DNA of 64,000 nucleotides from the NCBI RefSeq assembly GCF_003555545.1, contig NZ_CP032157.1, positions 3,600,546 through 3,664,545 on the forward strand, written 5' to 3'. The translations under genes were made by a program, and so were the position numbers. This document shows, piece after piece, positions 10,441-37,763 of this stretch. How positions within the stretch are numbered: the first letter of the stretch is position 1; each line of letters starts with the position of its first letter. Source of the DNA: Paraflavitalea soli. Its GTDB lineage: Bacteria > Bacteroidota > Bacteroidia > Chitinophagales > Chitinophagaceae. The notes under the pieces are model-generated. The model was not told the DNA's origin. It saw nothing but the letters and a program-made list of their open reading frames with translations, and did no database searches.

Positions 10441-10532
10441 AAGCTTCGAGCGACGAGCAGCGGGCTTCGGGCTAAATACAGGAGCGCCGTTCAAACCAAA
10501 GGCTCGCAGCTCGAAGCTCACAGCTCGTAGCT
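10441..10532 (+). repeat. Heptad palindrome R1 (intergenic)
   Basis: The left arm is four heptanucleotides of the form AGCTNYG (AGCTTCG, AGCGACG, AGCAGCG, GGCTTCG), followed by the invariant centre GCTAAATACA. The right arm is the complementary heptads GGCTCGC, AGCTCGA, AGCTCAC, AGCTCGT, then AGCT. The RNA would fold into an imperfect hairpin of about 25 bp. It starts 6 bp after a permease stop codon. Confidence 0.85.
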
Positions 10533-10565
10533 ATTTGTAAACAAAGCATCATCGGAAGTATTGTC

Positions 10566-10592
10566 ATGAACATTATAATAAACAACCAGTGA
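10566..10592 (+). other. Possible 8-codon leader ORF overlapping the next start (GTGA)
   Basis: An ATG at 10,566 opens an eight-codon frame (MNIIINNQ). Its TGA stop (10,590-10,592) overlaps the GTG start of the following permease (10,589-10,591) as GTGA. This arrangement could couple translation of the weak GTG start to the leader peptide. Translation of the leader is not shown by the sequence. Confidence 0.3.
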
Positions 10593-13000
10593 TAAAGACA
10601 TACCTCAAAATAGCCTGGCGTACCGCGCTCCGCAACCGGAGCTTCACCGCCATCAGCCTGGGCAGCCTGGTATTGGGAATTACCTTGTTCTTCCTCATCA
10701 GCCTGTGGGTGAAAGATGAGATGGGATATGATGCCTCATTTGCCAGCCAGCAACAGGTATGCCGCCTGGAAAGCGAAATGATCCGGCCCGATGGCCAGGT
10801 CAGCAAAATGAGCGCTGTAGGCTGGCCTGTGGGCAACACCTTAAAAGCCCAATACCCGGAAATAGAAAGCCTCACTTATCTCAGGGAATGGCATCCTATT
10901 GTGAAATTGAAGGAGACACGCTTTTATGAAGACGCCTTGTTTGCCGATGAGCAGTTCTTTGCCGTATTTGGTTATCAACTGCAGGAAGGCAATCCTGCCA
11001 CTGCCCTCAGGCAGCCTTACAGTGTAGTCATCACCCGGGAAATTAAAGAGAAATACTTTGGCAAAGGCGAAGCATTGGGAAAAGTGCTGATGGTCAACGA
11101 TACCGTTCCTTACAATGTGACCGGCGTCTTTGCCAAACTGCCCGCCGCCTCTCACCTGCGCTTTGATATGATCGGTTCTTTTGCTTCAGCATGCAGCCTC
11201 AATCCCGGGATGTGTGAAGAAGAATTTGCAGGTGGCTGGTTTGATATGAACGTATACAATTATGTACGCCTGGGCAAAAATACATCCGTGGCCACCACTA
11301 CCGCCAGGATCAAAAACCTGGTACAGGTAGCCGGTAAAGCAGCCGTAGCAGAAACCGGTTTTAAAACAAACCTGTCCCTGCGCCCCGTAAAAGATATTTA
11401 CCTGTACTCTGGTATGCCTACAGCCCAGGGAACCGTCGGAAACTTTAAGACCATCCAGCTCTTCCTGGCCATTGGTATTTTCATCCTGCTCATTGCCTGC
11501 CTCAATTTTATCAACCTCTCTACCGCCCGTTCCGTAGAACGCGCCAAAGAGATTGGCATACAAAAAGTATTGGGCAATGATCGCAAGCGGCTCATTGTTC
11601 AATTCCTTACCGAAGCTGCTGTACTGTGTTCCCTCGCCGCCATCATCAGCATCGTACTCATGATTGCCCTGCTGCCGGCCTTCAACACCTTTGCCGGTAA
11701 ATCATTTACCGTTTCCTCCCTGGTTACCCTGGAAAATGCTTTGTTGCTCTCGGGCATCATCGTGGCACTCGTACCCCTGGCAGGCTTCTATCCCGCCTGG
11801 GTATTGTCATCCTTCAAACCCATCAAAGTATTAAAAGGAAGTTTTTCTCATACCGCCTCCGGCGCCCTGCTGAGAAAATCACTGGTCGTATTACAATTCG
11901 TTATATCCGCCGGCTTCATCATGTGTACACTCATCATGTGGAAGCAGATGAGGTACATGCAGGACCAGGATCTGGGGTTTGATAAAAACAACATGCTGGT
12001 GATCGATGCCATAAAAGTGCCCTGGACATTGCGCCATGACAAAGCCGGTGTATTCAAATCCGAACTACTCCGCAAAACAGGCATCACCCAAATGACCGCT
12101 GCCGGCGCCGTGCCAGGCAGATCGGGCTGGGCAGGACAATTTGCCTATCCCGAAGGCAAGACCAAAGAACAGGCTACCATCGTTGAGTATATCGCCACCG
12201 ACCAGGATTATGTAAAGACCATCGGCCTTCCGCTAATAGCAGGGCGGGATTTCCTGCCCAACAGTGAAGCCGATGTGAAAGAAGCCTTCCTCATCAATGA
12301 AGCAGCCGTAAAGACCTTCGGCTGGGGCAGCCCTACAAATGCATTGGGCAAAAAACTGTCTACCTCCGGCAAAGATGGCATCGTGGTAGGCGTGCTGAAA
12401 GATTACCACCAGCATGGATTGCAAACAAAGATCCCTCCCGTCGTATTAAGCCCTGTGCCATTTTATGTCCTGTTTGCCCTGCGCTATGAAGGCATCAGTC
12501 CTGCGCAGGCCGTGGCCGATGTAAAAGCCGTGTGGGATGATGTATACAAAGGATATCCCCTTGAATACCGGTTTATGGATGAGGATTTCCAACGTCAGTA
12601 TGCCAGGGAGAACAAGCTACGCAGCTTTTTCGGCATCGCCGCTGGCCTGTCAGTAGTCATCGGTTGCCTCGGCTTACTGGGCCTTATCATCTATACAGCC
12701 CAGAAAAGAGTAAGAGAAATCGGCATCCGCAAAGTATTGGGCGCAGGTATTGGTGGCATCGTTGCCCTCTTGTCTGTCGACCTCCTGAAGCTCGTAGGTA
12801 TTGCCATTGTACTGGCCGTTCCCATTGCCTGGTGGACCATGCACGCCTGGCTACAGGGTTTTGCCTACCGCATTCAGATCAGCTGGCAGGTATTTGCCCT
12901 GTCTGCTGCCGCAGCCTTATTGATAGCCATGTTTACCATTAGTTTCCAGGCTATCCGCGCAGCAATGATGAACCCCGTGAAGAGCTTAAGAAGTGAGTAG
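10589..13000 (+). CDS. FtsX/MacB-type ABC transporter permease (803 aa), GTG start
   Basis: It has the double-MacB layout. The start is taken as GTG because translation from there gives the canonical N-terminus VIKTYLKIAWRTALRNR and no in-frame ATG fits. The first signature is KEIGIQKVLGND (320), with Gln replacing the usual Arg. The second is REIGIRKVLGAG (709), ending in Gly instead of Ser. The tail is NPVKSLRSE. It follows palindrome R1 and precedes R2. The GTG start overlaps a mini-ORF stop and may be translationally coupled. Substrate unknown. Confidence 0.94.
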   Translation: MIKTYLKIAWRTALRNRSFTAISLGSLVLGITLFFLISLWVKDEMGYDASFASQQQVCRLESEMIRPDGQVSKMSAVGWPVGNTLKAQYPEIESLTYLREWHPIVKLKETRFYEDALFADEQFFAVFGYQLQEGNPATALRQPYSVVITREIKEKYFGKGEALGKVLMVNDTVPYNVTGVFAKLPAASHLRFDMIGSFASACSLNPGMCEEEFAGGWFDMNVYNYVRLGKNTSVATTTARIKNLVQVAGKAAVAETGFKTNLSLRPVKDIYLYSGMPTAQGTVGNFKTIQLFLAIGIFILLIACLNFINLSTARSVERAKEIGIQKVLGNDRKRLIVQFLTEAAVLCSLAAIISIVLMIALLPAFNTFAGKSFTVSSLVTLENALLLSGIIVALVPLAGFYPAWVLSSFKPIKVLKGSFSHTASGALLRKSLVVLQFVISAGFIMCTLIMWKQMRYMQDQDLGFDKNNMLVIDAIKVPWTLRHDKAGVFKSELLRKTGITQMTAAGAVPGRSGWAGQFAYPEGKTKEQATIVEYIATDQDYVKTIGLPLIAGRDFLPNSEADVKEAFLINEAAVKTFGWGSPTNALGKKLSTSGKDGIVVGVLKDYHQHGLQTKIPPVVLSPVPFYVLFALRYEGISPAQAVADVKAVWDDVYKGYPLEYRFMDEDFQRQYARENKLRSFFGIAAGLSVVIGCLGLLGLIIYTAQKRVREIGIRKVLGAGIGGIVALLSVDLLKLVGIAIVLAVPIAWWTMHAWLQGFAYRIQISWQVFALSAAAALLIAMFTISFQAIRAAMMNPVKSLRSE

Positions 13001-13007
13001 GAAAACA

Positions 13008-13120
13008 AGCAGCGAGCTGTGAGCTACGAGCAGCGAGCTAAATACAGTAAAGACTATTCGAAGCATAACTTGTCCCGCTCTGCGGGAAGGCTCGCAGCTC
13101 GAAGCTCGTGGCTCGAAGCT
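13008..13120 (+). repeat. Heptad palindrome R2 with nested hairpin
   Basis: It has left heptads AGCAGCG, AGCTGTG, AGCTACG, AGCAGCG, centre GAGCTAAATACAG, and right heptads GGCTCGC, AGCTCGA, AGCTCGT, GGCTCGA. Compared with R1, R3, R4 and R5 it carries about 21 extra bases in the loop, containing CCCGCTCTGCGGG, itself a perfect small hairpin. The same insertion is present in R6. Confidence 0.85.
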
Positions 13121-13142
13121 TTAAAATTTAAATTGATACACT

Positions 13143-15524
13143 TTGTTGAGAAATAACATCATATCAACTTTACGTACACTCAAAAGAAACAGAACCTATA
13201 CCCTCATCAATATGCTGGGTCTATCCCTCAGTATTGGTGTGGCCATTGTTATTTTCATGATCCTGCGCTTTGAAGGAAGCTTTGATTCCTGGCACAAAAA
13301 TGCCCCCCGCCTCTACCAGGTGCTTGCTTATGATAAATTTGATGGCATTAACTCCCATATTCCCCAGGGCGCCATCAAAGCATTAAAAGAAAAAGTGCCG
13401 GGCGTTGAGAAAGCCGCCACCGTATATGGGTATACTCCCGCTGTGATCAACGTCAACGGAGAGAACCTCAAACAGGAACGAACCTTTTTCGTACAACCCG
13501 ATTTCCTGCGCATGATCGATATGCAATGGATACAGGGATCACCCGAAACATCTTTAAGCCAACCCGGTCAGGTAGTATTGGATCAGCCCACTGCCCAAAG
13601 ATTGTTCAAACCCGGAGAGCAGGTGATCGGTAAAAGTATCCTCTATGACAATACCCTTCCCTTAACCGTATCCGGTATTGTAAAAGAAATGCCTGCCAAC
13701 ACACAGTTCCGCATGCCCATGATGCTCTCCTATGCCTCCCTGCTTCAATACATGAACTGGTATAAGGACGAGGACTACTGGAGTGGCGGAGACTCTTACT
13801 TCCAGGGATTCGTACTGCTGAAACCCGGCGCCAGTGTTGCTGCCGCAGAAGCCAGCCTCAACCAGGTTGCAGCACAACAGGGAAATCGTAGTAATTATAG
13901 CAGGTTCAGCCTGACCAACCTGGCCCAACAACACTTTAATCCCCTTCCTGATATTGATTTCTTCAACTATGCCATCCCCCGCTGGTTATTGTATACCCTG
14001 ACCAGTATCGGTATTTTCCTGTTGTTGATTGCCTGTATCAATTTTATCAACATGGCTACCGTACAGGCCATGCAGCGCAACAAAGCCACCGGCATCCGCA
14101 AAATATTGGGCAGTAGCCGCATTCAGCTCATTGGCCAATTCCTGCTGGAAACAGCCTTCATAGTCACCGGCGCTATTGTAGCCGGCGCTTTATTCGCTTA
14201 TTTCCTCCTGCCCTATACCGGAAAATTATTGCATACACAGGTAGCCGAAGCACACAATTGGAATGCTGGTACCATTTTATTCCTCGCCGCCATTGGTGTA
14301 TTGCTCACCTTCCTCAGTGGGCTTTATCCGGCCTTCATGCTGTCCGGGTTTAAGCCCATACAATTACTAAGAGCCCGTTTTTTTTCCATCCCAACCAAAG
14401 GCTTCTCCCTGCGCCGCCTCCTCGTAGTCACCCAATTCAGCATTGCGCTCGTGCTGGTCATTTGCACCATCATCGGTGTAAAGCAGATCAATTATTTCTA
14501 CCACACCGAACTGGGTTTCGATAAGGCCGCTGTTATTACCGTCAATATGCCCGATGGCAGAAGCAGCGCCATCCGGGAAAGGTTCCGTCACGGCCTTCAA
14601 CAGTCGCCGGCCATCAGCGATGTAACCTTTGGCTTGACCACTCCCTCCGGCACCAACAACTGGTGGTGGGCCAATGTCAGGTACCATGGTCTCAAAGATG
14701 GTGAACAGCAATGGCGGCAACAATTCATCGATACCAATTACCTGTCCTTCTTCAAAATATCACTGCTGGCAGGTCGTGGCTTCAATGCATCCGACAGTAC
14801 CAACGCCACCGTACTTATCAATGAACAGGCGGCCCACGACATGGGATTTGCCGATGCAGCCAAGGCCCTGGGACAGCAGATCTACATGGGCAAAGAACAA
14901 TACACCATCGGCGGCATTGCCAAAGACTACCAGTCTCAGAGCCTTAAATCGGGCAAAACACCCCATGTATTTATCTATAACAGGCGCTTTCAAACCGCCT
15001 GCATACGCATCAACCACCTCCAGCAGGAAGCCGCCCTGCAATTGGTAGCTAAAGAATGGAAAGCCATTTTCCCGGAATACTACTTTGAATACCGTTTCCT
15101 CGATGATGACCTGAGATCCTTTTATGGCGATGAGAGCAAACTGGCCAGTTTCCTTTCCCTCTTCTCCATCATTGGCATCCTGATCGGCTGCCTGGGAGTA
15201 TACGGACTGGTAACATTTGTATGCGTACGCAAGACCAAAGAAATAGGCATCCGCAAAGTGCTGGGCGCCGGCTTCCTGGATATTATGGCCATGCTGAACG
15301 TGGAGTTTATCTGGCTCATTGTCATTTCATTTGTCATAGCAGCACCAATAGCAGGTTATACCATGCACCATTTCCTGCAGGATTATTCCAACCGCATTGC
15401 CATACCCTGGTGGATATTCCTGTTAAGTGGTTTGGGCGCATTACTGATCACCATGATCACCATCAGCTTTCAGGCTATCCGTGCCGCCAAGGCAAATCCG
15501 GTGAAAAGTTTAAGAAGTGAATAA
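13143..15524 (+). CDS. FtsX/MacB-type ABC transporter permease (793 aa), TTG start
   Basis: The start is taken as TTG at 13,143, with a second TTG directly after it, because this gives an (M)LRNNIISTLRTLKRNR N-terminus matching the paralogues and no ATG is suitably placed. The first signature is unusual, KATGIRKILGSS (314), with Ala-Thr replacing Glu-Ile. The second is KEIGIRKVLGAG (699), followed by FLDIMAMLNVEF where most members have LLSKDF. The tail is NPVKSLRSE. It lies between palindrome R2 and the next permease 27 bp downstream. The weak start may lower its expression relative to its neighbours; that is inference. Confidence 0.93.
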   Translation: MLRNNIISTLRTLKRNRTYTLINMLGLSLSIGVAIVIFMILRFEGSFDSWHKNAPRLYQVLAYDKFDGINSHIPQGAIKALKEKVPGVEKAATVYGYTPAVINVNGENLKQERTFFVQPDFLRMIDMQWIQGSPETSLSQPGQVVLDQPTAQRLFKPGEQVIGKSILYDNTLPLTVSGIVKEMPANTQFRMPMMLSYASLLQYMNWYKDEDYWSGGDSYFQGFVLLKPGASVAAAEASLNQVAAQQGNRSNYSRFSLTNLAQQHFNPLPDIDFFNYAIPRWLLYTLTSIGIFLLLIACINFINMATVQAMQRNKATGIRKILGSSRIQLIGQFLLETAFIVTGAIVAGALFAYFLLPYTGKLLHTQVAEAHNWNAGTILFLAAIGVLLTFLSGLYPAFMLSGFKPIQLLRARFFSIPTKGFSLRRLLVVTQFSIALVLVICTIIGVKQINYFYHTELGFDKAAVITVNMPDGRSSAIRERFRHGLQQSPAISDVTFGLTTPSGTNNWWWANVRYHGLKDGEQQWRQQFIDTNYLSFFKISLLAGRGFNASDSTNATVLINEQAAHDMGFADAAKALGQQIYMGKEQYTIGGIAKDYQSQSLKSGKTPHVFIYNRRFQTACIRINHLQQEAALQLVAKEWKAIFPEYYFEYRFLDDDLRSFYGDESKLASFLSLFSIIGILIGCLGVYGLVTFVCVRKTKEIGIRKVLGAGFLDIMAMLNVEFIWLIVISFVIAAPIAGYTMHHFLQDYSNRIAIPWWIFLLSGLGALLITMITISFQAIRAAKANPVKSLRSE

Positions 15525-15551
15525 GTAAACAAACAATAACACACCCTCCGT

Positions 15552-17963
15552 ATGTTTAGAAATTATTTCAAGACCGCCTGGCGAAACCTTTGGAAGAACA
15601 AAGCGTATTCCACCATCAACATCATTGGACTCTCCATTGGTATGGCCGCCTGTATCATCATTATGTTGTTTGTGCTATATGAAAGGAGCTTTGATAAACA
15701 GCATACCAAAAATATTTACCGGCTCGATGAAGTACAGAAATTCCCGGGCATGGTGGCGCCACAGAAGGTAGCCCTCTCTATGTTCCCCATGGGCCCCAGC
15801 CTGAAGCAGGAGTTTCCCCAGATACTTCAGTACACCCGCATCAATTCATTTGATAAGCCACCCATTGCCTGGAAAGAAAAAAAAGTAACCCTGTCCAAAG
15901 TATTCTGGGCCGACTCTACCTTTTTCGACATCTTCAACTTTCCCTTGCTGGAAGGCAACAGCCAATTGGTCCTGCAAAAGCCCAACAGCATGGTGCTTAC
16001 CCAGGCCAGTGCCGAAAAACTTTTTGGCAAAGAAAACCCCATTGGTAAAACAGTTACTATTCCCGATCGCGATACCCTTTCTTATACGGTAACCGGCGTC
16101 CTGGCCAATATACCCGGCAATTCCCACCTGCAGTTTGATGGATTGCTTTCTTTTAATACACGCAACACCGCCCAACTGATGGAAAACTGGGGCGGCAACT
16201 GGGTCAACACCTATCTTGAAATGGCGCCCAATTTCGATCAGGCAGCCCTGGAAAAGAAGTTCCCGGAGTACCTGAAGCGACATATGGAAGGAGATCGTCC
16301 TACCTTTTATGAACTCTTCCTGCAACCGCTTGCAGCCGTACATGCTGCCTCAACCGACATTACCCACGATTACCACAACTATCATAAGTTCGATGGCACC
16401 TATACCAAACTGTTCTCCATCATTGCCATCATTGTGCTCATCATAGCCTGCATCAATTTCATGAACCTGTCTACTGCCCGCTCAGCAGGCAGGGCCAAAG
16501 AAGTGGGTGTGCGTAAGTCAGTTGGGGCCAACCGTTTCCAGCTGGGTATACAGTTCATTGGAGAATCTGTCCTCTTGTGTTTCATTGCCTTGATATTGGC
16601 CCTGATCCTCGTAAAACTGGCCTTGCCCTGGGTATCTAACCTCAGTCAGCGTGATATGAACCTGCCCATATTTACCAATGGCAGACTCTTATTGAGTGCC
16701 CTGGCCGGCACCCTCATCGTAGGCACATTGGCTGGCCTCTATCCTGCCGCCTACTTGTCTTCTTTCGAGGCCATCAAAGTATTGAAAGGTTCTATCCAGA
16801 CAGGTAAAAGCAAGGGCTTGTTCCGGAATATACTCGTAGTAGGACAATTCTCCAGCGCCATCTTCCTCATCATCGCCACACTCTTTGCAGTAAGGCAGTT
16901 AAACTTCATGCAAAAGAGAGACCCCGGTTTTAAAAAAGATCAGGTAATCGCAGTCACCCTTAATTTCAGCACCGGTCCCAAATATGAGTCCCTTAAACAG
17001 GAATTGCTCAGCAATACCCTGATCACCGGCGTAACCGCCTCCTGGCAGCGCCTGGGTAATAACCTGCACCAAACCGGTATCACCTTTCACCCCGGTGACG
17101 GGCCTATGCGCAATATGGCCACTTCACAAGTGGTGGTAGACCACGATTACCTTACCGTATACAATATTCCCCTGGTAGCAGGCAGGAACTTCTCCAAAGA
17201 TTATGGTACCGATAATGGCAAAGCCTATATCATCAATGAGACCATGGCCAAAGAGTTGTTGAAAGAGCACCCTAAAGCACCCATCAGTTCCCTGATCGGT
17301 AAACAGTTTGGCTTAGGTGGTCTCGACTCTGTCGGCCATATAGTAGGCATTGCCAAAGATTTTAATTTCAACTCCCTTCACCATAAAATAGAAACACTCA
17401 CCATCTTTGACCAGAAGGATTGGGGATACAGCGAAATGTCTGTCCGTATCAATGGCGCCAAAGCACAACAGGCTATCGCGTATCTTGAAACCACCTGGAA
17501 GAAGATCAACCCCGGCCAGGACCTCGAATATGTATTCCTGGACGATCACTTCAAGGAGCTATACCATGCCGATTCGCAGGTAAGTGAGACCGTGGGCATA
17601 CTGGCAGGCCTGGCCATCATTATTTCCTGCCTGGGTCTGTTCGGCCTGGCCTCTTACGCCGCAGAAAAAAGGGTGAAAGAGATTGGCATCCGCAAAGTGT
17701 TGGGCGCCTCCGTTCAAAACATTGTACGCCTCTTGTCAAAGGACTTTTTGGTACTGGTACTCATTGCCAACCTCATTGCCTGGCCCCTTGCCTGGCTGGT
17801 ATTGAGCAAGTGGTTGCAGGACTTCGCCTACCGGGTGAATATAAGCTGGTGGGTATTCCTGGCAGCCGGCGTAGCCGCTCTGATGATCGCTTTATTGACC
17901 GTTAGCTTCCAGGCCATTAAAGCAGCCCTGACAAACCCCGTAAAAAGCCTGAAAAATGAATAA
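15552..17963 (+). CDS. FtsX/MacB-type ABC transporter permease (803 aa)
   Basis: This double-MacB permease begins MFRNYFKTAWRNLWKNK. Its signatures are KEVGVRKSVGAN (316) and KEIGIRKVLGAS (709), and the tail is NPVKSLKNE. A 27-bp gap from the previous stop suggests co-transcription. It is followed 76 bp later by the secreted solenoid protein gene at 18,040, the only non-permease inside the uninterrupted part of the array. That gap has short complementary stretches (ATGCA...TGCAT) but no convincing terminator. Confidence 0.95.
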   Translation: MFRNYFKTAWRNLWKNKAYSTINIIGLSIGMAACIIIMLFVLYERSFDKQHTKNIYRLDEVQKFPGMVAPQKVALSMFPMGPSLKQEFPQILQYTRINSFDKPPIAWKEKKVTLSKVFWADSTFFDIFNFPLLEGNSQLVLQKPNSMVLTQASAEKLFGKENPIGKTVTIPDRDTLSYTVTGVLANIPGNSHLQFDGLLSFNTRNTAQLMENWGGNWVNTYLEMAPNFDQAALEKKFPEYLKRHMEGDRPTFYELFLQPLAAVHAASTDITHDYHNYHKFDGTYTKLFSIIAIIVLIIACINFMNLSTARSAGRAKEVGVRKSVGANRFQLGIQFIGESVLLCFIALILALILVKLALPWVSNLSQRDMNLPIFTNGRLLLSALAGTLIVGTLAGLYPAAYLSSFEAIKVLKGSIQTGKSKGLFRNILVVGQFSSAIFLIIATLFAVRQLNFMQKRDPGFKKDQVIAVTLNFSTGPKYESLKQELLSNTLITGVTASWQRLGNNLHQTGITFHPGDGPMRNMATSQVVVDHDYLTVYNIPLVAGRNFSKDYGTDNGKAYIINETMAKELLKEHPKAPISSLIGKQFGLGGLDSVGHIVGIAKDFNFNSLHHKIETLTIFDQKDWGYSEMSVRINGAKAQQAIAYLETTWKKINPGQDLEYVFLDDHFKELYHADSQVSETVGILAGLAIIISCLGLFGLASYAAEKRVKEIGIRKVLGASVQNIVRLLSKDFLVLVLIANLIAWPLAWLVLSKWLQDFAYRVNISWWVFLAAGVAALMIALLTVSFQAIKAALTNPVKSLKNE

Positions 17964-18039
17964 AAATGCATTCTGTCTGTAACAAATACAAAAGACAAAC
18001 GTCTCTGCATTAAATAATCATCATACTAAATTGAATACC

Positions 18040-19077: not shown

Positions 19078-19099
19078 CCAACACTAAAACCACCCAACT

Positions 19100-29110: not shown

Positions 29111-29123
29111 ATGAGAAAAGGAT

Positions 29124-29154
29124 TTTGGCTTGCCGGAAATTCTACCTATTTTTC
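29124..29154 (+). promoter_or_regulatory. Candidate Bacteroidota promoter (-33/-7)
   Basis: TTTG at 29,124-29,127 is followed after 19 bp by TATTTTTC at 29,147-29,154. This matches the Bacteroidota -33 TTTG and -7 TAnnTTTG pattern at all but one position. Transcription would begin near 29,161, about 22 bases before the ATG of the next gene. Confidence 0.5.
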
Positions 29155-29182
29155 ACGAATCACCACCCTTACCTGATCACTA

Positions 29183-29734
29183 ATGGATGTGCATTTCTCC
29201 AAAGAACCGAACGTTAATTACATGAACGCATACTACAATGTATACAGTCTCTTCGTAAACGAAAGCCTATTAGGTAAGTTCTACTATTCTTCAAAGAAAT
29301 GTTCCTTCAGTTTTGATAAGATTTCCGTCAGGATCGACACCACTCACAGGTTCTTTCGCAAACCCAAAGTAGTGATCACCGACAACATATCCAACATGGT
29401 ATTGGGGCATTATGAATTAACCAATTGGACCATATTTAACGGATACCGCCATAAGTTGCATCTCCATGATGAGATACATTCCTTCAAAAGACACCGTCCG
29501 GACGGATATTCACTGTTTGGCAAAATTACCTGGGGGAGATACAAATTCACCCTTACCAATAACACAGAAGAAATCACCTATACTTTCCAGATCAGGTATC
29601 CCCTTTTTAGCCTTGGCAATATTGGCCCCTCACTGCCATTCGAAGGCTCCATTAAATTCAACAGCAACAATAAAATGGCTCTCTTCGCCGGCTTGTACCT
29701 GATCGAAACAGCCCTGGAAAACCTGAGTGACTAA
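29183..29734 (+). CDS. Hypothetical protein, 183 aa
   Basis: I do not recognise this protein. It has no signal peptide or membrane segment and is rich in aromatic and basic residues with alternating beta-type hydrophobicity (for example SLFGKITWGRYKFTLTNN). This loosely recalls tubby/LURP-type lipid-associated beta folds, but the resemblance is not strong enough for a call. The ATG at 29,183 suits the candidate promoter just upstream; an in-frame ATG at 29,222 is an alternative start. It sits in the block interrupting the permease array and converges on the gene at 29,754, with 19 bp between the stops. Confidence 0.7.
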   Translation: MDVHFSKEPNVNYMNAYYNVYSLFVNESLLGKFYYSSKKCSFSFDKISVRIDTTHRFFRKPKVVITDNISNMVLGHYELTNWTIFNGYRHKLHLHDEIHSFKRHRPDGYSLFGKITWGRYKFTLTNNTEEITYTFQIRYPLFSLGNIGPSLPFEGSIKFNSNNKMALFAGLYLIETALENLSD

Positions 29735-29753
29735 GCCCATAACGGCAGCAAAC

Positions 29754-30323
29754 CTACTTCCCAGGCATCCGTAGCCCAGGTACGCCTTGCTTACCTTGTT
29801 GACATTCTTTGTGATACTCCCGCCTGAAGACCTTATCCCGCCTCCGCCATAGGAGCAATTCAAAAGATGGCTGTTCAGCAGGGATATTTTTAAATAAACC
29901 CTTGACGGTGGATCCCACCGCTGGCCTTGCCCGACGATAAGATGGCCTTAATACCGTTGAAGGAGCTTCCACAGACAGTTGCATCCCTCCGTATTTCGGG
30001 ACATATTTTTGGGCAAGCCATTCGATGATGTCCGTTTCATTCCACCCATATTTCAACCAGGTCATTACCTCTCCGGTGATCTTACAGCGGAGTGTATGTT
30101 TTTTATAGCGAAGTGGAACCAATGCATACACCTTCAATGCAATAGGCGAAGCTTTGGCTAACAAGGCGGCATATTGCATGGTCTTGCGAAAGGCGGGATC
30201 TTTCTTCACCCGCTTGCCGGTCAGCGAACTGCGGGAGCGTATATAGTACCTCCCAAACATGAAGTATACTGTTATAGGCCCGTAAGTGCCAATAAAAGAA
30301 GGTGCGGAAGTAAGCCTTGCCAT
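29754..30323 (-). CDS. Conserved-looking basic hypothetical protein, 189 aa
   Basis: The protein is strongly basic. Near the N-terminus it reads FGRYYIRSRSSLTGKRVKKD, followed by PAFRKTMQYAALLAKASPIA. Proteins with this pattern occur as unnamed hypotheticals in Bacteroidota; that is recollection and was not searched. The centre holds a YGWNETDIIEWLAQKYVPKY segment. There is no signal peptide or membrane segment. The positive charge and RSRSS motif would allow nucleic-acid binding, but no known domain is visible. A phased triple repeat lies 70-100 bp upstream of its start. Confidence 0.75.
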   Translation of the reverse strand: MARLTSAPSFIGTYGPITVYFMFGRYYIRSRSSLTGKRVKKDPAFRKTMQYAALLAKASPIALKVYALVPLRYKKHTLRCKITGEVMTWLKYGWNETDIIEWLAQKYVPKYGGMQLSVEAPSTVLRPSYRRARPAVGSTVKGLFKNIPAEQPSFELLLWRRRDKVFRREYHKECQQGKQGVPGLRMPGK

Positions 30324-30391
30324 AATATTCTTTTTCCTAAAGATAGAGCGTTGGCCTGGGTGATCAACAGGCAGCTAACACAAACGGTTAA

Positions 30392-30420
30392 GTTCTGTTA
30401 TATTCTGTCATATTCAGTTA
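30392..30420. promoter_or_regulatory. Three 10-bp phased repeats upstream of the gene at 29,754-30,323
   Basis: On the + strand the sequence reads TTCTGTTA, TATTCTGTCA, TATTCAGTTA, a near-identical motif every 10 bp (one helical turn). It lies 69-97 bp upstream of the - strand start. Such phasing suits a multimeric regulator or intrinsic bending. It is not assigned to a known factor. Confidence 0.35.
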
Positions 30421-30602
30421 AAAACAGCCATTTAAAGTCACATTTTAACAAGCGCCGGTACCCTCTCAGGACCGGGTTTGACAGGGGTCTTGTTCGGGAC
30501 ATGTTTGTACCAACACCGGAGATAAAGCGCATTTTATGCACCTGTGAAATGAATTGAATGCTGGCCTGGCTTGTTTTGGTTTTGAGTATGGTTTGGGGCG
30601 GC

Positions 30603-30767
30603 CTAAGCGGGTACCGAATGAGACCCGAACAAGGTACGACGCAGACCCACGCAAGACCCGAAGAAAAGCCCGCACACTCCCATTGCGGATAGGCTCACCA
30701 GCCATAGCCCGATAACCAGTAATACAAAATGCTGCTGAAGCTGCTGTTTAATAGATTGATCTTGCAT
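30603..30767 (-). CDS. Possible small membrane peptide, 54 aa
   Basis: An ATG at 30,767 (- strand) opens a 54-codon frame: a polar start (MQDQSIKQQLQQHF), then one hydrophobic stretch at about residues 15-41 (VLLVIGLWLVSLSAMGVCGL and on), and a basic C-terminus with RR. This is the plan of a single-pass small membrane protein. The 3' end runs through GGGTC-type short repeats, which weakens the case. No Shine-Dalgarno sequence or clear promoter is seen, and the stretch may be non-coding. Confidence 0.3.
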   Translation of the reverse strand: MQDQSIKQQLQQHFVLLVIGLWLVSLSAMGVCGLFFGSCVGLRRTLFGSHSVPA

Positions 30768-30872
30768 GCCATTCCTGTTTTAATCAGATGAAGGACATCA
30801 TTCTCTGCAGGAATGACCGTAATCCGGCCCTGATCGTGAAGTCGATAGATTGGCAGTAGAAAGTTAAGCTAT

Positions 30873-31301
30873 TTATTTTTGCTGTGGATCATAATTCACC
30901 ATCCACTTGATCCCAAACTTGTCCGTAAAGCTGCCATAATAAGCACCCCAGAACATATCTGCGATGGGCATTTCAACGGTGCCTCCGGCAGACAATCCAT
31001 TAAACAAATGATCCGCTTCTTCCCTGCTTACCGGATGCAGCGAAATATGCACATTATTTCCTACCACCAGATTATGGCCCATAGAAGGCATCGTGTCTGA
31101 ACCCATTAAAGTAGTGTGCGCATCGATCGGCAGGGAAATATGCATGATCCTGTTCTTCTCATCATCAGGAAGGTTCTCCGTACCCGGTGCTTCCCCTATT
31201 TTATGAATAGCCGGAAACTCCCCGCCAAATACAGACTTATAAAAATTAAAGGCTTCTTCGGTTTTACCGTCGAAGTTTAAATAAGGATTCATTTTAGCCA
31301 T
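30873..31301 (-). CDS. VOC superfamily (PhnB-like) protein, 142 aa
   Basis: A small cytosolic protein of the vicinal-oxygen-chelate/glyoxalase fold, PhnB-like branch. The typical opening MNPYLNFDGKTEEAFNFYKSVFGGEF is followed by MHISLPI, LMGSD, NNVHISLHP and a final WGAYYGSFTDKFGIKWMVNYD, the standard order of motifs. Length (142 aa) is normal for the family. Members include metal-dependent lyases, dioxygenases and resistance proteins, but PhnB-like ones mostly have no proven reaction. It lies alone on the - strand in the interrupting block, with an AT-rich leader. Confidence 0.92.
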   Translation of the reverse strand: MAKMNPYLNFDGKTEEAFNFYKSVFGGEFPAIHKIGEAPGTENLPDDEKNRIMHISLPIDAHTTLMGSDTMPSMGHNLVVGNNVHISLHPVSREEADHLFNGLSAGGTVEMPIADMFWGAYYGSFTDKFGIKWMVNYDPQQK

Positions 31302-31393
31302 AACAATAGTTTTAGATTCTGCAAATAAGGCATTTATTATGAACTAAGGAGTTTTTGTGAATGGCTTATTTATTAAAAATAGAAGTTCTGATT

Positions 31394-31420
31394 TTGACTA
31401 TTGCTCACAATCGCTATAAT
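31394..31420 (+). promoter_or_regulatory. Candidate E. coli-like promoter (TTGACT / TATAAT)
   Basis: TTGACT (31,394-31,399) and TATAAT (31,415-31,420) lie 137 bp before the DUF3800 start with a 15-bp spacer, short of the preferred 17. This sigma-70 form is unlike Bacteroidota promoters and may be chance in AT-rich DNA or a trace of foreign origin. Confidence 0.3.
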
Positions 31421-31556
31421 ATCAGCCTGTTCGTTATATTTGCTATCCATTCGCACCAACCACCAGCTAACAGTCTCCCCGGATCAAACTAATATTGAAT
31501 TCTTGTCGTTGCAGACGTTCCTGCAACATAAAAATGCTATAACCAATATACTATTA

Positions 31557-32279
31557 ATGACTGAAGCTATTAAGCGTTATCTGTTCATCGACGAAAGTGG
31601 TGATCCGGTTTTTTATGGCAACCGCAAGAAACTACTGATTGGTACAACAGGTTTTCAGCCCTATCTCATTCTTGGAATGATTGAGACTGTCGATAGGAAA
31701 TCTTTACGCAAGTCTGTCGTAAACTTTATGGACAATATTAAGGCCGACAATCTTTATAACTCAATTGCTTCGGTCACAAATGAAAAAGGCTGGTATGTTC
31801 ATGCTCGGGGAGATCACCCTGAAATCAGAGCAAAATTCTTTGAGTTGCTTCGTAACCTGCAAGGATATCAGGCTCATGTCGTAATAGCCAAAAAGAATAT
31901 TGACATATTCAACCGAAAGCACAACAATAACCCTGCTGAGTTTTATTTTGATGTTTTACACCATTTACTTAACGGCCGGCTAAATAACAGCAGCCATCAT
32001 TATAACTTATATCTTTCACAAAGAGGCAACAATACGCTGCACCGTTTTCAAAATGCTGTCGCCAAAGCGCTGCATGCAGATGAAACTAAAACCTATGTCA
32101 ACATGCCCTGCCATCTTGAGATTGTACCAGCTATCGAAATGCCGGAATTCAGCATCATTGATTATCTCATATGGGCAATACAACGAAAATTATTACAAGG
32201 TGAAAATCGCTTTTTTAACGCAGTGAAAGATAAATTCCTAACAATTGTGGATCTATATAATGAGGATATAAAAAACTAA
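31557..32279 (+). CDS. DUF3800 domain protein, 240 aa
   Basis: The ATG at 31,557 was chosen because the conserved opening RYLFIDESGD begins seven residues later. An in-frame TTG upstream at 31,401 would add an unrelated hydrophobic extension. FIDESGD, the central HHYNLYLSQRGN and the C-terminal FSIIDYLIWAIQRKL are the pattern of DUF3800, with acidic residues that have prompted suggestions of a nuclease-like fold. The biochemical role is unproven. By eye it is clearly richer in A+T than the permeases around it, and it ends the block that interrupts the array, so it may be a recent arrival. Confidence 0.85.
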   Translation: MTEAIKRYLFIDESGDPVFYGNRKKLLIGTTGFQPYLILGMIETVDRKSLRKSVVNFMDNIKADNLYNSIASVTNEKGWYVHARGDHPEIRAKFFELLRNLQGYQAHVVIAKKNIDIFNRKHNNNPAEFYFDVLHHLLNGRLNNSSHHYNLYLSQRGNNTLHRFQNAVAKALHADETKTYVNMPCHLEIVPAIEMPEFSIIDYLIWAIQRKLLQGENRFFNAVKDKFLTIVDLYNEDIKN

Positions 32280-32450
32280 AAAATCCTGTCGCCCCCGTGC
32301 CAATACTGGCAACACCCATCTGGGATGAGATATGTAAGCGAAGAACTTTTTAGCACCATAAAGATACGTTTTTATCCTAAAACAGCGACAAGCCACCAGC
32401 CTTCGCTTTCAAACCCATCTTCCCGACCTCCCGTCTTCCGGGCTTTCTTC

Positions 32451-32497
32451 TGTATCAAAACCGGACAGTTTTTGTATCGGAAACGAACTACTTCGTA
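32451..32497 (+). promoter_or_regulatory. Putative upstream control site, copy B
   Basis: The sequence matches 2926-2972 in register over 47 bp. It has two direct TGTATC-led units 22 bp apart (TGTATCAAAACCGGACA at 32,451 and TGTATCGGAAACGAACT at 32,473), then the dyad ACGAA-N4-TTCGT (32,483-32,496). It lies about 190 bp before the permease start. Conservation in two otherwise unrelated gaps supports a shared regulator. Confidence 0.6.
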
Positions 32498-32650
32498 TGG
32501 GGAATACCTCATAGCCCGTTGTTAATCATGCTCCTACGTTCTGGCATGTGTTTGCCATACTACCCGCAGGCTCCCAAACGGCTGGGGAAAGTATAGCCAT
32601 GAAAATATACCGCCCTTAATGCAACATAAAGCCGTTCGGGGAGCCTATTA

Positions 32651-32667
32651 GTTTAACATTGTTAAAC
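32651..32667. promoter_or_regulatory. Operator-like palindrome GTTTAAC-ATT-GTTAAAC
   Basis: Seven-base perfect arms surround a 3-bp centre, 20 bp before the ATG of the permease at 32,688. A repressor bound here would cover the ribosome-loading region or promoter. A shorter GTTTAAAC palindrome (3062-3069) occupies a similar place before the permease at 3078. No regulator is assigned. Confidence 0.4.
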
Positions 32668-32687
32668 TATTTAAACGAAAAACTTAT

Positions 32688-35138
32688 ATGATCAGGAACT
32701 ACTTAAAATTGGCCTTTCGTAATGTCAGGAAGCACAAAGCCTTCTCCCTGATCAATATTTTGGGGCTGGCCGTTGGCATCAGCGCTTCCCTCGTCATTTA
32801 CCTGATCGTTCAGTATGAGTTTAGTTTCGACCGCTTTCACAAGGATGGAGACCGCATCTACCGCGTCGTTTCCAGCCTCGATTTCTCAGGCGCGCATTAC
32901 GACAACAGTTCCGTGCCTGCTCCCCTGGCGGCGGCGGCCGGCACCAGTATAACCGGCCTGGAAAACACCGCGGCCATCTTTACCACGTATGATCCTAAGG
33001 TGAGCATCAGCAAAGGCAACAACCAAAAGCCCGAAGTATTCAAGGCCAGGAAAGGCGTCGTCTTTACCGACCAGCAGTATTTTAACCTGGTCACCTACCA
33101 ATGGATGGCCGGCTCGCCCGATGTGCTCAAGGAACCCTACAAAGTAGTGTTGACCGAAAGCCGCGCCAAAGAATATTTCCCGTTTGCCGATCCTACCCGC
33201 GCTGTAGGACAACTAATGAGCTATGATGACAGCATTGAGGTAACCGTGGCCGGTATCGTAAAAGACCTGCAGGAAACCACCGACCTTAACTTTAAAGAAT
33301 TTATTGCTACTGCTACCATTCCTGCCAGCAAGCTGGAGAACAACTATAGCTGGACCACCTGGAACAATTATTTTGGCAACTCCCAGCTATTAGTAAAGCT
33401 TAAGAAAGGAGTCTCGCCCCAACAAACAGCCGCACAGATCAACGCCCTGGTAGCCAGCCATGCACCCAATAGCAGCGGCGTCAGCACAAAGCAGCTTTTA
33501 CAGCCGTTGAATGATCTGCACTTCAACGACAAGTACGATATTTTTGGGGAGCGCCGGGCCCACAAGCCTACCCTTTACGGATTGCTGGTGGTGGCAGCCT
33601 TCCTGCTGATATTAGGATGCATCAATTTTATCAACCTTACCACCGCACAGTCGGTTCAGCGGGCCAAAGAAACAGGTATCCGCAAGACCATGGGCAGCAC
33701 ACGGACACAACTGATAGCCCAGTTCATGAGTGAAACACTGGCCCTCACCATCACTGCTACCCTGCTGTCCATTGCCCTCATCCCTTTACTGCTGAAAGCA
33801 TTTTCAGACAATATCCCCGAAGCCATCACCTTCAGCCGCCTGTTCCAGCCCAATATTATAGCCTTCATGATTGCCCTGGTATTCGTCGTGAGCCTGCTGG
33901 CCGGGTTCTACCCATCCCTGGTACTATCAGGTTTCAAACCTGTACTGGTATTGAAAAACCAGGCTTTCAGCAACAGCGGCAAGACCAGGAGCGCCTGGCT
34001 GCGCAAAACATTGACCGTATCTCAATTCATCATAGCCCAGTTCTTCATCATCGGCACCCTGATGGTAGCCAAACAAATACATTTTTCCCTCAACAAAGAC
34101 CTGGGCTACCGCAAAGACGCCGTTGTTAATTTCACCATTCCCTGGCGCGAGAGCAGCCTTTCTAAAAAGCAGGTACTCCTCCAGAAATTGAAAAGCATTC
34201 CCGAAATCCAAATGGTTACCCTCAGCGGTATTCCACCTGCTTCAAAAGGCACCACCTCCTCTACCCTCACCCTCGATGATGGCAAAAAGGCCATCGAGAA
34301 AATGACAGAGATCAGGCTGGGGGATGCTGCCTACTTCGACCTCTATAAGATCAAACTGGTGGCCGGCCAAATGCTGCAGCCCAGCGATACCGTTCGTAAA
34401 GAATACCTGGTCAATGAAACATTTGCCCGGGAGATGGGATTTGCCAATCCTGCTGATATTATTGGCAAACACATCCAGCGGCGCGACAAAACATTGCTGC
34501 CCATTGTAGGTGTAGTAGCCGATTTTCATACCAAGTCCCTGCATACCAATATTGCCCCCCTGGTATTTACGGCCAAAAGCGAGGAATGCAATACCTTCCA
34601 TATCCTGCTCCCTCCACAGGAAGCAGGCAGCAATACCTGGAAGAATGCTTTTGCCAAATTAGACAAGGCCCTGAAAGAAGTATTTCCCGAAAGGACTTTT
34701 GAATATCAGTTCTTTGATGAGCAGATAGCCGATTTCTATAAGACAGAACAAAACACTTCCCGCTTATTGACCTGGGCCAGCGGTCTGGCCGTATTCATCA
34801 GTTGCCTCGGACTGTTGGGCCTGGTGATCTATACCACCCACCAGCGGGTAAAGGAAATAGGCGTACGCAAAGTGTTGGGCGCTTCTGTAACTCAGCTCGT
34901 ATCCCTGCTGTCTAAAGATTTCATAGTGCTGGTTATTGTAGCCTTCGTGATCACCGCGCCCCTGTCGTGGTGGGCCGTTAACACCTGGCTGCAAAATTTT
35001 GCTTATCGTACGTCAATGCCCTGGTGGATATTTGCTTCCGGCGGAGCCATTATGCTCATCATTGCATTGATAACACTCAGCATACAAACTTTCCGCTCCG
35101 CACTGGCCAACCCGGTGAAGGCGTTGAGAAGCGAGTAG
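32688..35138 (+). CDS. FtsX/MacB-type ABC transporter permease (816 aa), twin of the gene at 5494
   Basis: It has the double-MacB layout, N-terminus MIRNYLKLAFRNVRKHK, signatures KETGIRKTMGST (327) and KEIGVRKVLGAS (722), and tail NPVKALRSE. It resembles the permease at 5494-7950 across its length: shared GISASLVIYL, PVLVLKNQAFSN and FFDEQIADFY, and the same extra length in the first periplasmic domain. It opens the second part of the array after the interruption and carries control site B in its leader. Palindrome R5 follows. Confidence 0.95.
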   Translation: MIRNYLKLAFRNVRKHKAFSLINILGLAVGISASLVIYLIVQYEFSFDRFHKDGDRIYRVVSSLDFSGAHYDNSSVPAPLAAAAGTSITGLENTAAIFTTYDPKVSISKGNNQKPEVFKARKGVVFTDQQYFNLVTYQWMAGSPDVLKEPYKVVLTESRAKEYFPFADPTRAVGQLMSYDDSIEVTVAGIVKDLQETTDLNFKEFIATATIPASKLENNYSWTTWNNYFGNSQLLVKLKKGVSPQQTAAQINALVASHAPNSSGVSTKQLLQPLNDLHFNDKYDIFGERRAHKPTLYGLLVVAAFLLILGCINFINLTTAQSVQRAKETGIRKTMGSTRTQLIAQFMSETLALTITATLLSIALIPLLLKAFSDNIPEAITFSRLFQPNIIAFMIALVFVVSLLAGFYPSLVLSGFKPVLVLKNQAFSNSGKTRSAWLRKTLTVSQFIIAQFFIIGTLMVAKQIHFSLNKDLGYRKDAVVNFTIPWRESSLSKKQVLLQKLKSIPEIQMVTLSGIPPASKGTTSSTLTLDDGKKAIEKMTEIRLGDAAYFDLYKIKLVAGQMLQPSDTVRKEYLVNETFAREMGFANPADIIGKHIQRRDKTLLPIVGVVADFHTKSLHTNIAPLVFTAKSEECNTFHILLPPQEAGSNTWKNAFAKLDKALKEVFPERTFEYQFFDEQIADFYKTEQNTSRLLTWASGLAVFISCLGLLGLVIYTTHQRVKEIGVRKVLGASVTQLVSLLSKDFIVLVIVAFVITAPLSWWAVNTWLQNFAYRTSMPWWIFASGGAIMLIIALITLSIQTFRSALANPVKALRSE

Positions 35139-35147
35139 TGGAAGACC

Positions 35148-35232
35148 AGCTGCGAGCTGTGAGCTTCGAGCTACGAGCTAAATACAAAAAAGGCATTCGA
35201 AGCAAAGGGCTCGCAGCTCGAAGCTCGAAGCT
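35148..35232 (+). repeat. Heptad palindrome R5
   Basis: This is the cleanest copy. The left heptads are AGCTGCG, AGCTGTG, AGCTTCG, AGCTACG, followed by AGCTAAATACA. The right heptads are GGCTCGC, AGCTCGA, AGCTCGA, then AGCT. It begins 10 bp after the permease stop and ends 13 bp before the next start. It contains no stop codon in the frame of the next gene, so the downstream frame reads back through it. Confidence 0.85.
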
Positions 35233-35245
35233 AAAAAATAAACAA

Positions 35246-37639
35246 ATGATTCGTAACTACCTTAAAATAGCGGTCCGCAACCTGATGAGGAACAAAGTAT
35301 TTTCCTTCATCAATATCTTTGGCCTGGGCCTTAGCATGGCTGTATGCCTGCTGGTGATCCTGCATGTGAAAGACCAGCTGAGCTATGATAAGTTTCACCC
35401 GCAGCCCGGTCGCACCTATCGCATCATCAGCAATATCACCAACAAGGAAGGCAATACCAGTACCTTTGCCAGCACACCCCTGCCTCTTGCAGACAAGCTG
35501 GCGACCGACTTTTCCCTGATCGAGCACCTCACCCGGATCTATCCCGTTGATGCCAATGCAACCAATGGCGTCAAGGAATTGCGCTTACACCAGGCTTTTA
35601 CCGACAGCAACTTTTTCAACATATTTGGCTATACCCTGCAATCCGGCAATAGCCATACCGCTTTAACCTCACCCAACAGCATTGTACTGAGCAAAGAAAT
35701 AGCAGAGAAGTTCTTTGGCAATTCCAATGCCATGGGACAGGTATTGACTTTTAGCGAACTGGGCGATTTCAGGGTTACCGGTGTCATGAATAAACCAGCC
35801 GGCAAATCACATGTGGAGAAAGACGCCTACCTGTCCATGAGTTCCGTTCCCCTGCTGGAGAAAACAGGTAAACTGTCTGCCAAACTGCGGCAATGGAACA
35901 ATATCACCGATGCCTATACCTACGTGGTGCTTAAACCGCAGGTAAAGGAGAAGCAGCTTAGCCAGGCCGTTACTACCATTTCAAAAGACCTGGTAAAACA
36001 AAGCACCCTCACAGGAAAAGAGAACTATGCTTTTTCTGTACAGCCCCTCAACAAGATCATACTGAGCGAGGAAATGAACGCGCCCCTGGGCAATACCGGC
36101 TCACGCGGCAAAGTGATAGCAGAAATAGTGATTGCCTTAATCATTCTCTTATCAGCCTGTTTCAATTATACCAACCTGTCCGTAGCCCGCTCCCTCAAAA
36201 GAGGCAAGGAAGTGGGCATCCGCAAAGTATCAGGCGCCGTCCGCTCACAGGTGTTTACCCAGTTCGTCATTGAATCCCTGTTAACAGCCTTTTTGGCCCT
36301 CGTACTGGCCTGGCTGATGCTCAATATCATGAAGGGACAACCCTTCGCCCGTGAAATAACATCCGCCGATGAGCTCATCCTGGATGCAGGCACCTGCGTG
36401 TGGTTCCTCCTGTTCAGCCTGTTTGCGGGCTTACTCGCAGGTGTATTACCCGCCTGGGCCCTCTCTTCCTTTAAACCTGTTGAGGTATTAAAGAACCTCT
36501 CTACCGTAAAATTATTCCTGGGCAATAACTTCCGGAAAAGCCTCATCGTAGTACAGTTCACCCTGTCACTCGTGGCCACCATATTTACACTTACCTTTTT
36601 CCGCCAGTTCGACTATATGGACAATGCCGATCCCGGGTACAGGCAGGATCACGTCATCTCCATTCCCCTGGCCGCAGCCGGTCAGCCTTTACTGAAGCAT
36701 GAGCTGGAGCAACTGAACGGTGTAACCAGCGTAGCAGCCATTTCCACCCTGCCTGGCAGGGAAGTGACCGGCCGCACAAGGGTGAGGTCCCAACCCGGCG
36801 CCGAACCCATTGCCATGGACTATTATTTTGCCGATCCCGGTATCTTCAATACCCTCCACCTGTCATTACTGGCGGGTACCAGCTTTCCACAGCAGGCCGA
36901 TAGTGCACAGGCCGAGCAATACATTGTCCTCAACGAGCTGGCTTTGCAGCCCCTGCACATCACATCCCCCCAGGCAGCCATCGGCAAAAGCATCTGGATA
37001 GACGATAGCGTGCAGGTACAGATAGCCGGTGTAATGAAAAACTTTTCTCATCGCGGCCTGGCCGTACCCTTTATACCCCTGGTGATGCGCCAAAAGCCGG
37101 CAGCTTATCATTACCTGGTGGTTAGTACCGCCACTGCCTTACCCGCCAGCTTTCTCAAATCAGTAGAAAGCACCTGGAAAAAACAATTCCCCAACCAGCC
37201 TTTTGAAGGAAAATGGTTGCGCGAAGACTGGGCAGGCGGCAACAAAGTCAATGGTACCGTGGGTATGCTGGGTTTCCTTACCCTGATCACCATTACCATT
37301 GCCTCCCTGGGTTTATTGGGTATGGTGATCTATAGCACCGAAACCCGCCGCAAGGAGATCGGTATCCGCAAAGTAATGGGCGCCAGCATCGCCATCATCA
37401 TGGCCCTCCTGAGCAGGAGCTTCCTGAAACTGCTGCTCATTGCCGGTTGTATAGCCTTACCTATTGGCTACTTGCTGGGTTTCTTCTTTTTAAACATATT
37501 TGCAAACCGGATCACCATAGGCGTAGACATATTACTGATCAGCTTTGCAGTTATGCTATTGATCGCATTAATGACTATTATTACGCAAATTTACCGGGTG
37601 GCAGCAGCCAATCCCGTCAATAGCCTGAGAAGCGAATAG
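35246..37639 (+). CDS. FtsX/MacB-type ABC transporter permease (797 aa), last of the array
   Basis: The ATG at 35,246 gives MIRNYLKIAVRNLMRNK, aligned with all paralogues. The frame is open upstream to 35,024 only because it reads through palindrome R5 and the previous gene, so that extension is rejected. Signatures are KEVGIRKVSGAV (321) and KEIGIRKVMGAS (703); the tail is NPVNSLRSE. The C-terminal membrane block is more diverged (SRSFLKLLLIAGCIALPIGY), lacking the WWxMxxWLQxFAYR motif of its relatives. It is separated from the ATPase gene by R6. Confidence 0.94.
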   Translation: MIRNYLKIAVRNLMRNKVFSFINIFGLGLSMAVCLLVILHVKDQLSYDKFHPQPGRTYRIISNITNKEGNTSTFASTPLPLADKLATDFSLIEHLTRIYPVDANATNGVKELRLHQAFTDSNFFNIFGYTLQSGNSHTALTSPNSIVLSKEIAEKFFGNSNAMGQVLTFSELGDFRVTGVMNKPAGKSHVEKDAYLSMSSVPLLEKTGKLSAKLRQWNNITDAYTYVVLKPQVKEKQLSQAVTTISKDLVKQSTLTGKENYAFSVQPLNKIILSEEMNAPLGNTGSRGKVIAEIVIALIILLSACFNYTNLSVARSLKRGKEVGIRKVSGAVRSQVFTQFVIESLLTAFLALVLAWLMLNIMKGQPFAREITSADELILDAGTCVWFLLFSLFAGLLAGVLPAWALSSFKPVEVLKNLSTVKLFLGNNFRKSLIVVQFTLSLVATIFTLTFFRQFDYMDNADPGYRQDHVISIPLAAAGQPLLKHELEQLNGVTSVAAISTLPGREVTGRTRVRSQPGAEPIAMDYYFADPGIFNTLHLSLLAGTSFPQQADSAQAEQYIVLNELALQPLHITSPQAAIGKSIWIDDSVQVQIAGVMKNFSHRGLAVPFIPLVMRQKPAAYHYLVVSTATALPASFLKSVESTWKKQFPNQPFEGKWLREDWAGGNKVNGTVGMLGFLTLITITIASLGLLGMVIYSTETRRKEIGIRKVMGASIAIIMALLSRSFLKLLLIAGCIALPIGYLLGFFFLNIFANRITIGVDILLISFAVMLLIALMTIITQIYRVAAANPVNSLRSE

Positions 37640-37650
37640 CGGAGGAAGGC

Positions 37651-37763
37651 AAGCTGCGAGCGACGAGCCACGAGCAGCGAGCTAAATACAGTCAAGAAAT
37701 TCGAAGCATAACTTGTCCCGCTCTGCGGGAAGGCTCGCAGCTCGAAGCTCACAGCTCGTAGCT
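37651..37763 (+). repeat. Heptad palindrome R6 with nested hairpin
   Basis: It has left heptads AGCTGCG, AGCGACG, AGCCACG, AGCAGCG, then AGCTAAATACAG, and right heptads GGCTCGC, AGCTCGA, AGCTCAC, AGCTCGT, AGCT. The loop insertion with CCCGCTCTGCGGG is the same as in R2, although the two copies are 24 kb apart. It sits between the last permease and the ATPase gene. Confidence 0.85.

Follow-up and report, generated by a model that had tools for sequence, protein, structure and literature searches.

Intercistronic stem-loops with arms built from tandem 7-nt words recur throughout the genome of Paraflavitalea soli, and six of them lie in the window, the whole 64,000-nt stretch of DNA that was analysed. 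We consider that these elements, which we term heptad ladders, are dispersing REP-like stem-loops that are anchored just past stop codons and kept imperfect, and we assign this reading a probability of about 50%. Dispersal, anchoring at stop codons with a polarity, register-specific anti-matching of the facing arms in two dialects of the 7-nt word, exchange of one dialect for another and orthologous gaps free of the element were all observed.

Six stem-loops in an array of permease genes

The original prediction placed six two-armed elements in the gaps of a gene array, and these proved to be real, at six coordinates between 10442 and 37763 (Table 1). Each left arm consists of AGCTNYG heptads and each right arm of the reverse-complement pattern. 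The left arm adjoins the upstream stop codon in all six elements, as had been claimed, and begins 5-12 nt past it. The genes of the host cluster were identified by a Pfam scan of seven proteins, four of which were permeases of the array.

Table 1. Heptad elements and host genes in the window
Feature	Coordinates	Strand	Description
R1	10442..10532	+	AGCTNYG left arm, TAAATACA, loop, AGCTCRN right arm; 7 nt past stop at 10434
R2	13008..13120	+	7 nt past stop at 13000; loop with additional ACTTGTCCCGC...GCGGGA palindrome
R3	21544..21629	+	GTTAAATACA variant; 5 nt past stop at 21538
R4	26559..26651	+	5 nt past stop at 26553
R5	35148..35232	+	9 nt past stop at 35138; 24-nt arms, 88% complementary
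R6	37652..37763	+	12 nt past stop at 37639; loop palindrome as in R2
Seventh AGCTNYG block in the window, one-armed	52545..52582	-	overlaps end of minus-strand gene 52575-58463
Host cluster	8026..39848	+	tandem MacB_PCD/FtsX permease genes, then ABC ATPase and outer-membrane efflux protein
ABC ATPase gene of host cluster	37809-38471	+	
Outer-membrane efflux protein gene of host cluster	38508-39848	+	

The sequence GCTAAATACA had been described as a nearly constant centre. Five of the six elements carry it unaltered and the sixth has the form GTTAAATACA, which upholds its near-constancy in the window, but it abuts the left arm and does not form the centre. The window contained 15 matches to GCTAAATACA with at most one mismatch compared to 4.65 in shuffled sequence, and none of 100 shuffles reached 15. 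The sequence is not universal, with 38 exact copies genome-wide compared to 8 for the reversed control, and loops outside the window are as short as 4-5 nt. The ACTTGTCCCGC...GCGGGA palindrome nested in the loops of R2 and R6 is a second dispersed palindrome, and a similar one is also found in L075, L114, L116, L131 and further gaps. A longer dispersed sequence type, GTCATTTCGAACGAAGCG...GAGAAATC, repeats in gaps of L114, L131, L058 and L146.

Dispersal, placement and exchange of dialects

The P. soli genome is a single contig of 8.44 Mb. Many dispersed copies had been expected in it, and the pattern AGCTNNGAGCTNNGAGCTNNGAG (at most two mismatches) was matched 444 times compared to 33 times for the reversed pattern, a count in which overlapping windows can score one heptad block repeatedly. 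At one mismatch, AGCTNNGAGCTNNGAGCTNNGAG was matched in 12 of the 59 genomes searched, P. soli included, with 337 matches in P. soli, 138 in G002, 85 in G004, 31 in G023, 27 in G011 and 4-14 in the others. The copies are not near-identical, in contrast to most active mobile repeats, and this counts against the preferred reading.

Placement relative to genes was examined in 80 evenly spaced 20-kb stretches (1.6 Mb), which form an unbiased sample, unlike the two-armed set fetched by pattern. Genes were called by a dicodon scorer of our own construction, and start positions are approximate. All 36 sampled elements outside the window were intergenic. Co-directional (21) and convergent (10) gaps held 31 of the 36, and divergent gaps held only five, although they account for 31.8% of intergenic bp in the whole sample. 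Of 44 heptad blocks outside the window, 17 had their 5' end no more than 15 nt from a stop codon, compared to 3.2% by random placement, which bears out the predicted enrichment just downstream of genes; within 15 nt of a start codon the figures were 3 of 44 and 3.7%. Lone blocks showed a polarity, with the 5' end toward the stop in 12 of 30 and the 3' end toward it in 2 of 30. Two observations count against the preferred reading: by the seed rule, 30 of the 36 elements outside the window are one-armed, some with a weak second arm, and one-armed and other-dialect blocks are also present in divergent gaps.

Pattern searches and fetched stretches yielded 115 rows of two-armed elements, or 59 once near-identical rows were removed, 28 from P. 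soli and 31 from relatives. Their arms measure about 24-38 nt and their loops 4-62 nt. Gap orientation was ++ in 24, -- in 22, +- in 10, -+ in 2 and unknown in 1. The co-directional elements begin between -16 and +13 nt from the stop codon in 43 of 46 cases. The two divergent cases among the 59 are L219 and L228, the latter near a contig end in the orthologous cluster, where the call is possibly wrong.

A single palindrome family, as originally proposed, is too narrow a description, as AGCTNYG is one among several interchangeable heptad dialects. When 21-nt stretches were required to match themselves at 16 or more positions, 97 of 855 gaps in the P. soli sample matched at lag 7, 71 at lag 14, 25 at lag 11, 23 at lag 8 and 1-6 at other lags, compared to 0-1 after shuffling. 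A stricter scan recorded period 7 in 70 of the 855 gaps and periods 5, 6, 8, 9 and 10 in 1-16, with unit families GTATTCT (19), CGAGCTG (13), CGGCAGT (12), AATCCTA (10), TTTAGCT (7) and smaller ones. GAAACCC is also among the heptad words in the sampled gaps (L039-L146). Over all heptad families, stop-side ends lay within 15 nt in 23 of 75 cases (7.9% by random placement) and start-side ends in 9 of 77 (6.1%). Inverted pairing by unit consensus was clear in four of the eight gaps with two detected segments, and the two-armed form is therefore well tested for two dialects only. The second of these, AGTGGYN, is abundant only in G004, with counts against the control of 385/69 in G004, 50/19 in P. 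soli, 40/30 in G002, 2/10 in G001 and 3/10 in G003.

Orthologous gaps in congeners, among them G001, whose ribosomal locus is identical to that of Paraflavitalea pollutisoli across 2800 nt, carry a similar hairpin in another dialect or none, so that the architecture is kept while the wording changes. The R1 gap measures 28 nt in G003 and 24 nt in G001, both without the element and with orthologous flanks. The R2 gap (32 nt in G001, 74 nt in G003) has no hairpin in either genome, and the R3 gap of G004 (30 nt) and the R6 gaps of G004, G003 and G001 (39, 53 and 41 nt) are likewise free of the element; the R6 gap of G002 has only a short AGTGGC-type heptad stretch. At the R4 and R5 gaps, the G004 orthologues carry AGTGGYN hairpins with fold z of -5.9 and -6.0, respectively. 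The reverse case is found behind 19077, where the P. soli gap is 22 nt long and the G004 gap contains an AGTGGYN hairpin. Elements are thus gained or lost between cistrons. The gaps that lack them have diverged too far to show any target duplication.

Hairpins of the same kind lie within the spc ribosomal-protein operon and there are almost certainly transcribed. The rpsQ-rplN gap carries AGCTNYG in G001, G002, G003 and G004 and AGCTNTT in P. soli. The rpmC-rpsQ gap has AGCTNTT in P. soli, G002 and G003, AGCTNYG in G004 and an octad in G001, where the self-match at lag 8 is 14/14. The rplN-rplX gap carries AGCTNYG in G001, G002 and G003, a TGAGTGG-type word in G004 and no heptads in P. soli. 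Given these dialect swaps, gains and losses at a gap, it is place and fold that are kept and not sequence.

Periods were counted in 603 gaps of 80 named ribosomal loci (L237-L316), with period 7 in 45, period 8 in 32 and periods 5 and 9 in one each. Period 8 is thus a real second class in these gaps; a scan of the whole loci, coding sequence included, returned many matches of periods 6, 8, 9 and 12. Octad hairpin arms also occur alongside heptads, for example at L317:1044-1140. In the 42 ribosomal loci nearest the query, the median fold z was -2.45 over 230 gaps of 60-220 nt, with -3.6 in the 39 gaps with period 7 and -2.13 in the 191 without, showing that ribosomal-locus gaps often contain hairpins even where heptads are absent. 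Two features of the folds speak against the preferred reading. Some are weak or no stronger than chance (rplN-rplX with z of -1.3 in G003 and -1.7 in G001, and P. soli rplX-rplE with -1.5), and in three of the five rpsQ-rplN gaps the minimum-energy fold adds a small separate hairpin by the start codon.

Matching between facing arms

Changes in one arm had been described as compensated in the other, and the reverse was found: facing variable letters match below chance in two dialects. We compared facing pairs at the three positions between the GAGC cores (TNY) with shuffles. Across the 59 elements, in-register matches numbered 89 of 183 at T (100.3 in shuffles; 0.35% of shuffles as low), 42 of 183 at N (62.4; 0.025%) and 104 of 183 at Y (117.2; 0.275%). 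N matches shifted by one heptad were 39 of 138 compared to 43.7 expected, and 41 of 137 compared to 44.7 in the other direction. Scored element by element, N matches fell short of expectation in 42 of the 59 (Wilcoxon 0.00087).

The two arms border unlike loop motifs and shuffling could mix them; this possible confound was rejected, as the effect persisted after the elements were oriented. With a hand-made loop-type rule, 41 of the 59 elements could be oriented and gave 168 total matches compared to 200.8, a value that none of 4000 shuffles went down to, and the 18 loop-ambiguous elements alone gave 67 compared to 78.1. Three results weaken the case. T matches in the oriented set were also reduced at shift -1 (45 compared to 53.1; 0.5% of shuffles as low), so register specificity is evident in N and in the summed count and less so in T. 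Elements from P. soli alone showed a weak N effect (26 compared to 31.1; 14% of shuffles) with T and Y low, and those from other genomes a strong reduction at N (16 compared to 32.6). Identity of whole spacers was only mildly reduced (15 compared to 22.6; 3.8%).

The AGTGGYN dialect was tested by scanning 42 G004 loci, which gave 18 elements after two near-duplicates were dropped. N matches were 8 of 55 compared to 20.4, lower than in any of 4000 shuffles, and shifted N matches were 16 of 39 (12.8 expected) and 15 of 45 (14.9 expected). No effect was seen at Y in this dialect (39 of 55 compared to 41.1). The longest uninterrupted Watson-Crick stem averaged 6.57 compared to 7.67 in shuffles (42 elements), and the stem resembles a ladder, its short rungs broken about every seventh base. 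In both arms the free position takes A, G or T and seldom C (C in 6 of 196 AGCTNYG and 4 of 122 AGTGGYN words). Avoidance of GAGCTC restriction sites as the cause of the rare C was rejected, the observed/expected ratio of 0.89 not being strong.

Covariation is the customary proof of a real stem. Here the stem is revealed by avoidance of pairing in register, and standard structured-RNA screens would miss it. Rfam covariance models at gathering thresholds returned only a tRNA in the window and nothing in eight ribosomal loci. The facing arms gave no RNA-strand asymmetry: G.U facings (60 compared to 49.1) and A.C facings (82 compared to 65.1) are both above expectation, which gives no indication that the RNA strand is under selection. 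An mRNA-level element (attenuator, stabiliser or processing site) that spreads between cistrons had been proposed. The copies are indeed numerous, dispersed, intergenic, enriched at stops and absent at some orthologous gaps, and such a role at RNA level is possible, although the facing arms give no strand signal for it.

Proposed role, rival explanations and related repeats

Under the heptad-ladder reading, an arm of tandem 7-nt words begins a few nt past a stop codon, and an inverted second arm closes a hairpin that often fills the gap. About five letters of each word are fixed; of the others, one is a pyrimidine (Y) and one is free (N), though seldom C. Avoidance of matching between facing free letters makes the stem a chain of short helices with mismatch breaks. 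Within a lineage the elements disperse, and at any one gap they can be gained, lost or swapped for another dialect. They may act like REP or BIME sequences, as transcribed stem-loops 3' of the stop that are tolerated or mildly useful, perhaps as a transcript end or a barrier to decay. The mismatches may hold the stem below attack by nucleases of long duplexes, RNase III on RNA and SbcCD on DNA.

It is possible, and we suggest it tentatively, that the element is independent of its sequence and defined by an inherited place, a 7-nt word length and an enforced mismatch at a set letter, the word itself being swappable wholesale. If so, some machinery would have to recognise or assemble folded heptad stems through their structure and not their sequence, and each lineage would amplify its own dialects. 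The replacement of one word by another in a given gap, seen in ribosomal and in transporter operons, allows selection on form to be told apart from selection on sequence. It also makes testable an old puzzle, the abundance of seven-letter repeats in bacteria.

REP elements, as described in PMC3733652, are short extragenic hairpins mainly in co-directional or convergent gaps near stop codons. Our elements resemble the REP, BIME and REPIN groups in being dispersed, short and extragenic, often in inverted pairs and stop-proximal in such gaps; the arms fall in the size range of dispersed extragenic palindromes of 20-40 bp, and the inverted pair is larger. They differ in having arms of tandem heptads, a word that is exchangeable between species at one gap, no GTAG or CGTC tag of the kind that marks one end of a REP and no evident link to the presence of a Y1 transposase. 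The likeness in placement would suit an identity as REPIN-type elements mobilised by a RAYT (Y1/HUH transposase) through recognition of the folded, mismatched hairpin, as would the two or three Y1_Tnp matches in each of five congeners and a 198-aa RAYT-like Y1 transposase ORF in P. soli (L148:1201-1797, minus strand) with an AGCTNYG block right past its stop. We regard mobilisation of this kind as unlikely. A block past the stop is the rule for any gene in P. soli, no more than 4 of 59 elements have a GTAG or CGTC tag in the 8 nt flanking the arms, and Y1_Tnp presence does not track element abundance: heptads occur without any Y1 match in G016 and G028, and heptads are few in G001 and G003 despite two matches each. 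No mobilising enzyme was identified, which also counts against the preferred reading.

Translational coupling, in which a gap-spanning stem joins stop and start and its outer rungs are melted by the terminating ribosome so that the next start becomes free, seems quite unlikely. The spc operon stem does extend from the stop codon to a point about 10 nt short of the ATG, its left arm varying among G001, G002 and G003 and its right arm remaining constant, and in 17 of the 46 co-directional two-armed elements the distance to the next start is at most 20 nt. However, the other 29 end farther from it, all ten convergent elements span from stop to stop (both ends -9 to +10 nt from the stops) with no start following, and the hairpin is absent at several orthologous gaps in congeners. 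Neutral heptamer microsatellites, produced by polymerase slippage and pairing without a role, would account for the dominance of period 7 in P. soli gaps, and PMC4679880 and PMC4692102 describe heptamers as the most frequent class of long simple repeat in numerous bacteria, with slippage proposed. This is nevertheless very unlikely, as slippage would leave head-to-tail copies of one unit, whereas identical neighbouring spacers within an arm are scarcer than in shuffles (4 of 142 compared to 11.1; 8 of 147 compared to 15.7) and the arms are inverted. Inverted facing arms, polarity toward the stop and one word at many loci are all unexpected from slippage, and anti-matching is clear only in register. 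Intrinsic transcription terminators would match hairpins that are stop-proximal, often two-directional and negative in fold z, but they are highly improbable given the position of elements between genes of the spc operon and a right arm with no U-run directly behind it (across 30 positions in 46 elements, the fraction of T ranges from 0.22 to 0.43).

STRR sequences of cyanobacteria are heptameric repeats. The tandem 7-nt unit of LSSR and STRR repeats is present here in the 70 gaps with period 7. The TAACTGA heptamer occurs in Beggiatoaceae, cyanobacteria and five Bacteroidetes, mostly as direct repeats just 5' of start codons (PMC4679880), and GGGNATC-type heptamers occur in Xanthomonas and Nostoc, with some Xanthomonas copies inverted (PMC4692102). 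The elements described here share with heptameric repeats the 7-nt unit, intergenic location, many loci, degenerate letters at fixed places (GGGANTN) and repeat-free neighbours in close relatives. Unlike TAACTGA, they have inverted arms past stops, anti-matching free letters and several dialects per genome. The original claim that no described REP or MITE class fits is only half correct, heptamer repeats and stop-proximal REPs each being published (PMC4679880, PMC4692102, PMC3733652). A search of the open-access literature found no description of heptad arms combined with a post-stop hairpin. Integron attC sites and IS200/IS605 ends are imperfect folded hairpins in which mismatches or extrahelical bases matter. 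With no integrase or end-specific enzyme found linked to them, the elements described here differ from these sites, which they may resemble as imperfect folded hairpins with meaningful mismatches.
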